A stretch of DNA of 64,000 bases from Hydrogenophilaceae bacterium (GTDB lineage: Bacteria; Pseudomonadota; Gammaproteobacteria; Burkholderiales; Thiobacillaceae), in NCBI GenBank assembly GCA_024709485.1, contig JANJWO010000033.1:1-64000 (forward strand), read 5' to 3'. This document shows, one piece after another, positions 2,950-52,075 of this stretch (position 1 is its first letter; each line of letters starts with the position of its first letter). The position numbers were made by a program, and so were the translations under genes. The notes beneath the pieces were generated by a model. It was not told the origin of the DNA. It made no database searches and saw nothing but the letters and a program-made list of their open reading frames with translations.

Positions 2950-3026
2950 CATAGAGGAAGCGGAGAGATCAGGGGAAGGCAAAATTTTTCCCGGTTTTCC
3001 GCTGTTACCTCAGCTCCCTCTGTGCA
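2950..3026. repeat. intergenic dyad repeat, CAGAGG family (degenerate copy)
   Basis: Left arm ACATAGAGGAAGCGGAGAGATCAGGGG; reverse complement of right arm GCACAGAGGGAGCTGAGGTAACAGCGG. Confidence 0.6.
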
Positions 3027-7456: not shown

Positions 7457-7516
7457 AACACCGAGGAAGCAGAGGACAATATGCTTGCCTCCGTTGCCTC
7501 TGTTATCTCTGTGTTC
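7457..7516. repeat. intergenic dyad repeat, CAGAGG family
   Basis: Left AACACCGAGGAAGCAGAGG; reverse complement of right AACACAGAGATAACAGAGGCAACGGAGG. Confidence 0.7.
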
Positions 7517-9472: not shown

Positions 9473-9625
9473 CGTCATGGCGAGGAGTGCATTCAGCCTT
9501 TAGCCGCGAGCGCAGCGTGGCGGGACGCGGCAGTCCAGGGTTTTCCAGGCGCGAGTTACAAGATGCAGGTGAGTTGCTGGGCTTGGTTTGACTGGATCGC
9601 CACGCTGCGCTCGCGATGACGGTCA
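9473..9625. repeat. long imperfect inverted repeat between convergent genes
   Basis: CGCGAGCGCAGCGTGGCG at 9505-9522 is exactly inverted at 9598-9615; flanked by CGTCATGGCGAGG...CGATGACGG. Confidence 0.75.
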
Positions 9626-28438: not shown

Positions 28439-28517
28439 GACACAGAGGAAACAGAGGGAGCAGAGGAAATCTTTTTTGTCAGGGGTTGCCTCTGTTACCT
28501 CTGCTGCCTCTGTGTGA
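28439..28517. repeat. intergenic dyad repeat, CAGAGG family (best copy)
   Basis: Left ACACAGAGG/AAACAGAGG/GAGCAGAGG; reverse complement of right ACACAGAGG/CAGCAGAGG/TAACAGAGG. Confidence 0.85.
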
Positions 28518-28530
28518 AATATTTTTTGAT

Positions 28531-29796: not shown

Positions 29797-29890
29797 GAAC
29801 AAGGAGGACAAGAGGACTGGAGTAAGGCGATGTGGAAACGATTCAGGCATGAATAAAAGTTTCCTCTTGTCCTCATGTCCTCTTTGTTCA
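29797..29890. repeat. intergenic dyad repeat, 8-nt GACAAGAG variant
   Basis: Left AACAAGGAGGACAAGAGGAC; reverse complement of right AACAAAGAGGACATGAGGACAAGAGG. Confidence 0.75.
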
Positions 29891-31766: not shown

Positions 31767-31843
31767 TTAACACAGAGGAAGCAGTGGGAGCAGAGGAAGG
31801 CATCATTTCTTCTAACCCTCTGTTTCCTCTGATAGCTCTGTGT
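31767..31843. repeat. intergenic dyad repeat, CAGAGG family
   Basis: Left ACACAGAGG/AAGCAGTGG/GAGCAGAGG; reverse complement of right ACACAGAGC/TATCAGAGG/AAACAGAGG. Confidence 0.8.
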
Positions 31844-45848: not shown

Positions 45849-45865
45849 ATCCGAAAAAACAGCCA

Positions 45866-45974
45866 GCCACAGAGAACACAGAGTTCACAGAGGAAAACCA
45901 AGGCCGCTGTGGCAGTGGTGACCCGCTCTCAGGCAATGCCTTCGTGCATCACGCGTGAGTCTTCTCTGTGTCTA
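45866..45974. repeat. intergenic dyad repeat, CAGAGG family (asymmetric copy)
   Basis: Left CCACAGAGA/ACACAGAGT/TCACAGAGG; right arm reverse complement only ACACAGAGAAGACTC. Confidence 0.65.
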
Positions 45975-51938: not shown

Positions 51939-51982
51939 CGTCGGGAGCGTTTCCATAAAAACGCATTTTCCCTTGAAACAAG

Positions 51983-52075
51983 GCGGTTGTCAGTTGTTAG
52001 TCGTCGGTTGGCAGTTCACGGTAGCCGGTTCCGGGTTTTTGACTGAAAACCGGGAGCTGAAAACTGACGCCCGCC
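51983..52075. repeat. intergenic inverted repeat of ~7-nt ACTGAMA/AACTGAC-type units
   Basis: Right arm ACTGAAAACCGGGAGCTGAAAACTGACGCC against left reverse complement ACTGCCAACCGACGACTAACAACTGACAACCGCC. Confidence 0.65.

Follow-up and report, generated by a model that had tools for sequence, protein, structure and literature searches.

REPINs are pairs of inverted short repeats that form a hairpin and occur in many intergenic copies, and the gene of the associated RAYT enzyme, a chromosomal gene of low copy number, is flanked by the same repeats (PMC3116915). The enzyme lineage matches the repeat family, and phages and plasmids carry the system rarely or not at all (PMC3116915). All of these features are shared by the dyads studied here, which were found in a 64,000-nucleotide stretch of a Hydrogenophilaceae genome (the window), and by the gene associated with them elsewhere in that genome. 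However, the RAYT enzyme is a Y1 HUH transposase, whereas the protein encoded here belongs to the GxxExxY family and has a predicted PD-(D/E)XK fold. Furthermore, the arms are arrays of 7–9-nt units with no GTAG/CGTC tag in the arms and flanks that were read, the loop of each site is unique, and orthologous sites hold different families.

The nearest description of the repeats themselves, as given in the accessible part of the report, is that of classes 1–3 of the 'predicted global regulator binding sites' of Geobacter metallireducens, which are opposite-strand pairs, at variable distance, of 3–5 tandem 7–9-nt repeats (PMC2700814). Several site families occur in that genome, and IHF/HU binding was proposed (PMC2700814). 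The pairing of tandem arrays on opposite strands with variable spacing is the same as here, and the class 2 unit TCTCCGTS[Y] resembles the CTCTGTG units found in this study. In contrast, the accessible text links no nuclease to the sites. Heptamer repeats GGGNATC in Xanthomonas and Nostoc (PMC4692102) and TAACTGA in Beggiatoaceae (PMC4679880) are described, in the available parts of those papers, as tandem G-quadruplex or translational elements. These are also 7-nt tandem units that are intergenic and sporadic across phyla, but neither inverted arms nor a link to a nuclease is reported in those parts. In the literature that was accessible, the GxxExxY family (TIGR04256 / PF13366 PDDEXK_3) is known as a sequence family only and is mentioned in passing. 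No literature link between the repeats and GxxExxY, PF13366 or TIGR04256 was found in a search that scarcely covered subscription papers.

The ispG-hisS dyad and related families

The gap between ispG and hisS includes a dyad with arms of three 9-nt units (Table 1), as reported in the preliminary description except that its ends were off by 1–2 bases. The reverse complement of the right arm is ACACAGAGG CAGCAGAGG TAACAGAGG. From reading of the copies, the unit of this family (F1) is the 9-nt NARCAGAGG in inverted arms, and the consensus is ACACAGAGG-(NARCAGAGG)n-AA-loop-TT-(CCTCTGYTN)n-CCTCTGTGT, where n = 1–4. Four further sites in the window had been listed as related copies. Those at 2950, 7458 and 31770 belong to F1, while that at 45866 is a member of the sister family F5 (AGCCACAGAGAACACAGAG).

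Table 1. Repeat features of the window and units of the sister families.
Feature	Position	Strand	Description
Left arm, best F1 dyad	28440..28466	+	9-nt units ACACAGAGG/AAACAGAGG/GAGCAGAGG; ispG stop codon 2 bp upstream
Loop, best F1 dyad	28467..28488	.	T-containing; resembles the loop of no other inspected copy
Right arm, best F1 dyad	28489..28515	-	Three inverted 9-nt units; hisS start 15 bp downstream
Outer flank of ispG-hisS dyad	28516..28530	.	GAAATATTTTTTGAT; nAA..TTTT signature
Decayed F1 dyad	2950..3024	.	Sole family dyad seen between divergent genes
F1 dyad, partly decayed	7458..7514	.	Within remains of an outer F4-like dyad; orthologue in G002 is F1
F1 dyad	31770..31843	.	F2 dyad at the orthologous G002 site
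F2-family dyad	29797..29889	.	GAACAAGGAGGACAAGAGGACTGGAG...CTCTTGTCCTCATGTCCTCTTTGTTC; just 3' of hisS
F5-type relic	45865..45972	.	AGCCACAGAGAACACAGAGTTCACAGAGG ... CTCTGTGTC; poor right arm
F2			Unit ACAAGGAGG-ACAAGAGG-ACAGGAG
F3			Unit ACAGGGAGG-TANGGGAGG
F4			Unit ACCGCGGAGTTCGCGGAGGACGCGGAG
F5			Unit GCCACAGAGGACACAGAG

At least five families of this common design, inverted arms of iterated units, occur in the genus, F1 among them, and a scan of stretches of the own genome (G000) and of the congener G002 revealed rarer kinds of 7–8-nt unit besides F1–F5. Outside the arms, all five families have a common signature, roughly nAA and then TTTT. Elements can be nested, as seen for F4 within an F2 loop and F1 within F4.

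Abundance and location of F1

The doubled unit CAGAGGNNNCAGAGG, with no more than one mismatch, occurs 14 times in the window against 0.25 expected from shuffles (56x), and genome-wide it gave 240 matches compared with 10 for the reversed control pattern. The dyad pattern CAGAGG-N20-50-CCTCTG was found 106 times per strand in the genome and 0 times for the control. The 2.5-Mb genome is estimated to have roughly 50–100 F1 elements, nearly all intergenic, a number below 106 because overlapping pattern matches were counted more than once. Hence, copies beyond those first noticed occur far above chance, and the intergenic preference that had been proposed for them is strong. In a generic inverted-repeat scan, dyads of any kind had a density of 1529/Mb between genes and 292/Mb inside them (~5x), with gene boundaries taken from gene calls made in the present analysis. 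Both the dyads and their intergenic location are direct observations.

The gene-context and arm-pair analyses covered ~0.45–0.47 Mb of the own genome and 1.2 Mb of G002. Family dyads were located in 72 tandem, 11 convergent and 1 divergent gaps, as compared with 492, 84 and 145, respectively, for background gaps. By inspection, the loops of the F1 copies are all different. Recent copying of a whole element within the genome was not seen, since no two inspected copies have a common loop.

Folding and conservation of the units

An RNA hairpin, a multi-site protein-binding array and a MITE-like element had been proposed in the preliminary description as possible identities of the repeat. Folding of the ispG-hisS dyad gave -45 kcal/mol (z -6.7), and the predicted hairpin is therefore strong, but the arms lack covariation. 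At the NNN positions of 17 F1 copies, identity of left and right arms was 24% observed versus 23% shuffled for N1 and 29% versus 45% for N3, and the compensatory changes between the arms that the preliminary description named as a check are absent from these copies. The missing covariation argues against a conserved RNA helix. Statistical independence of the arm spacers indicates that selection acts on each unit. Thus, the conserved feature is the repeated unit rather than continuous pairing, and this suits a protein that reads single units, not an RNA helix. The RNA-element reading, which also found no match in Rfam, was rejected. A pure terminator was likewise rejected on the symmetry of the T-tracts, as a T4 run flanks the dyads of tandem genes downstream in 49% and upstream in 53% of cases (p=0.74).

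The ideas of a protein-binding array and of a MITE-like element both fit and are united by the observations, in that arms composed of unit arrays bracket a GxxExxY gene elsewhere in the genome and the window copies are without the gene. The differing loops are unlike those of MITEs.

The GxxExxY gene between the arms

Reading of the flanks revealed that a GxxExxY gene (PF13366/TIGR04256, predicted PD-(D/E)XK fold, ~120 aa) stands between two dyad arms. The gene of the own genome (G000:C59:8543-8890) has F1 arms, with AACACAGAGGTAACAGAGGGAGCAGAGG upstream, and the right arm at the gene end is read in frame and encodes the C-terminus of the protein. At two trpD-trpC loci (L375 and L376) the C-terminal residues are repeat-encoded, because the GxxExxY reading frame crosses the right arm, and at L373 it is the left arm that encodes the N-terminus.

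The own-genome protein scored 141 bits with the PF13366 profile (cut-off 22), and a relative from G004 scored 149.7 bits with TIGR04256 (cut-off 35). Residues E22, D62, E72, K74, Q86 and Y90 are invariant across 14 GxxExxY sequences and match the E, D, ExK and QxxxY set of PD-(D/E)XK nucleases, in which QxxxY is reminiscent of the RecB and Cas4 types. A low-confidence AlphaFold model (pLDDT 58) suggests the order helix-strand-strand-strand-helix-strand. Sequence searches of the PDB gave only non-significant matches, with best E values of 0.59 for the single protein and 0.17 for a profile.

For 45 PF13366 loci of the phylum, the median score for inverted arms upstream and downstream of the gene was 21, while the median was 10 both for 637 ordinary genes and for swapped flanks. 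A score of at least 15 was reached by 41 of the 45 loci, compared with 5% of ordinary genes and 14% of swapped flanks. A further 28 PF13366 loci, which include Bacteroides, Cylindrospermum, Lacipirellula, Oscillochloris and Methanosarcinales, had a median of 25 versus 12 (p=1.6e-13). Arms were also found around PF13366 genes of B. finegoldii, Sphingomonas, Bernardetia, Gemmatirosa and an archaeon; the PF13366 genes at L425, L473 and L483 are without clear arms. The more similar two nucleases are, the more similar their arms tend to be (Mantel rho 0.44, 0/5000 permutations), and CACGAAT, CACGGAATA and CAGAT arms are each found mostly in their own nuclease clade. The presence of arms around the nuclease in most loci tested and the agreement between nuclease and arm similarity were thus observed directly.

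In 1.65 Mb of the own genome and G002, GxxExxY was the only gene seen between such arms, and in 239 repeat-bearing loci it was the sole recurrent one. Other genes as cargo were rejected, as none is recurrent in either set.

Distribution and copy number

PF13366 matches were found in 7 of 9 species of the genus, though that of G005 is only a frameshifted gene. It had been supposed that similar spacers may occur in other environmental genomes, and they are present in many phyla and in archaea, beyond that expectation. Among the matches listed, the F4/F5-type motif occurs in Chloroflexota, Planctomycetota, Verrucomicrobiota, Acidobacteriota, Bacteroidota, Cyanobacteria, Nitrospirota-like bacteria, Treponema, Methanosarcinales and others, and a GxxExxY gene adjoins the repeat in some of the loci listed. 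When genomes were chosen solely for a related repeat, 40 of 47 encoded PF13366 and 7 had no match, compared with 18 of 120 in a phylum sample of Pseudomonadota only (Fisher p=1.6e-17, which overstates the certainty because the two sets differ in taxonomy). Co-occurrence of repeat and nuclease across phyla is hence a direct observation.

F1 is commonest in G000, with 109 matches versus 69 in the next genome. F2 is commonest in G003, the nuclease of which has F2 arms (140 matches, compared with 83 in G005 and no more than 28 in the others). In G001 and G006, where no nuclease was detected, there were 3 repeat matches and none, respectively. Thus, copy number follows the resident nuclease in G003 (F2), G000 (F1) and, roughly, G002 (F4). 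However, it does not do so in G008, which has a nuclease with F3 arms but 3 F3 matches, in G002 in so far as F1 is more numerous there than F4, or in G005, which is rich in F2 and has only the frameshifted PF13366 match.

The nuclease gene is almost never found on phages, plasmids or viral contigs. This near-absence and the low copy number recall, by analogy, the RAYTs. RAYTs are regarded as domesticated. More than 100 contigs classed as viral (L253-L332) had F4/F5-type motifs, but the nuclease gene was found in one viral contig only.

Occupation of orthologous sites by different families

The own genome and G002 share ~87% nucleotide identity. At the sites of F1 copies in the own genome, the orthologous G002 gaps hold F1 in 9 cases, a different family in 14 and no element in 4, and the gap corresponding to that of the ispG-hisS dyad holds an F2 dyad. 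In the sister species, too, a given site often holds another family. Orthologous gaps were occupied in both genomes in 37 cases, in one only in 18 (12 + 6) and in neither in 50 (p=7e-12). The correlation was retained without same-family pairs (p=1.5e-8) and with both gaps at least 50 bp and non-divergent (p=9e-6), gap length being incompletely controlled in this test because a dyad lengthens its own gap.

The trpD-trpC junction carries a nuclease with F1 arms in G000, F4 arms in G002, F2 arms in G003 and F3 arms in G008, and these four nucleases form one supported clade (96/93). The arms at these loci therefore change faster than the nuclease gene. At the radA junction of Bacteroides, the nuclease of B. 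fragilis has CAGAT arms and those of B. nordii and B. finegoldii have CAGAG arms; the latter two are 82% identical to each other and 55–57% identical to that of B. fragilis. The patterns at the two junctions indicate that sites are reused or rewritten, and the occupation of one site by more than one family was observed directly. Judging from the sequences, a family change apparently involves a switch of gene lineage in some cases and the arms alone in others. No target-site duplication was evident at trpD-trpC, where the empty junctions (G001, G006, G007 and G013) are too diverged to delimit one.

Proposed origin of the dyads

The window dyads look like element copies without the nuclease, since their design equals that of the arms bracketing the GxxExxY gene. 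We consider it likely that the CAGAGG dyads are copies, non-autonomous and REPIN-like, of a repeat element that is linked to a nuclease and whose mobility and nuclease action we infer. The parent element is probably mobile DNA of a kind not described previously. Its complete form would consist of an inverted array of 7–9-nt units, the ~120-aa GxxExxY gene and a matching inverted array. The putative nuclease would bind its own arms by recognising their units one by one and would cut dyads of this kind; the arms would then be moved or copied into intergenic gaps, usually without the gene, through repair or strand transfer. Incoming elements may be directed preferentially to resident dyads, either inserting into these or taking their place, so that a site would stay occupied while its family changes; we infer that replacement is the route of this change. 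No recent transposition was detected in the genomes compared. A broader proposal, which is possible but on balance doubtful, is that of selfish DNA of bacteria and archaea in which a single PD-(D/E)XK nuclease would cut and replace dyads genome-wide by cassette-like conversion, with populations switching family along with nuclease specificity while the sites remain fixed.

Alternatively, the dyads could be transcription terminators or stabilisers of mRNA 3'-ends that retain the hairpin while their sequence drifts, and the association with the nuclease gene could be incidental. This is unlikely: the strong hairpin, the bias in gap type, the conserved occupancy of sites despite sequence change and the T-tracts outside the arms agree with such a role, but the T-tracts are equally common upstream of the dyads in tandem genes and the arm spacers do not covary. 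Nor does it explain the use of one 9-nt unit at ~100 sites, the bracketing of a nuclease gene by the same design or the co-occurrence of repeat and nuclease. The lack of covariation and the conservation per unit would be accounted for if the arms were binding arrays for a host nucleoid protein or global regulator, with GxxExxY genes as inserting passengers, and the accessible part of the G. metallireducens report interprets very similar paired arrays in this way (IHF/HU; PMC2700814). A passenger role is, however, difficult to reconcile with a nuclease phylogeny that tracks the unit sequence, with GxxExxY being the sole gene found between arms in the 1.65 Mb and the sole recurrent one in the 239 loci, and with the strong enrichment of the nuclease in repeat-bearing genomes, and we regard this explanation as quite unlikely.

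It is highly improbable that the dyads are ordinary MITEs of a classical insertion sequence, or REP/REPIN sequences moved by a Y1 (RAYT) transposase. They do have a non-autonomous inverted-repeat design and an intergenic spread, and the genome includes one Y1_Tnp gene (G000:C71:64777-65097, L486). Yet the 3-kb locus of this sole Y1 gene is without any CAGAGG or CCTCTG, on which ground RAYT/REP was rejected. Moreover, no other gene in the stretches examined has matching arms, no target-site duplication was seen, and the loops are unrelated between copies, unlike those of MITEs.

If the dyads are copies of a nuclease-linked element, a partner and a mechanism would be offered for an intergenic repeat superfamily (CACAGAGGACACAGAG, CGCAAAGG, CACAGATGA and CACGAAT types) that extends across phyla and archaea, and the uncharacterised GxxExxY family would gain a likely substrate, namely its own flanking arms. 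Should the enzyme move or rewrite the arms, it would represent a REPIN-like system on a different nuclease fold, with site-preserving replacement of families, that is apparently undescribed.

Additional observations

A convergent gap of the window (9505-9615) holds an 18-bp inverted repeat without mismatches, CGCGAGCGCAGCGTGGCG, which encloses a 75-nt loop and is not of the iterated-unit type. A dyad of another iterated unit (GGCGGTTGTCAGTTGTTAGTCGTCGG ... AACTGAC) is located in a divergent gap at 51982-52075 and resembles the TAACTGA-type repeats of the literature. In an Omnitrophota contig (L155:1408-3366), two GxxExxY genes that are 84% identical, both with CACAGAG arms, flank a hisA-like gene. 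The two copies have ~20 bp past the right arm in common, and the arrangement suggests that the whole element was duplicated locally.
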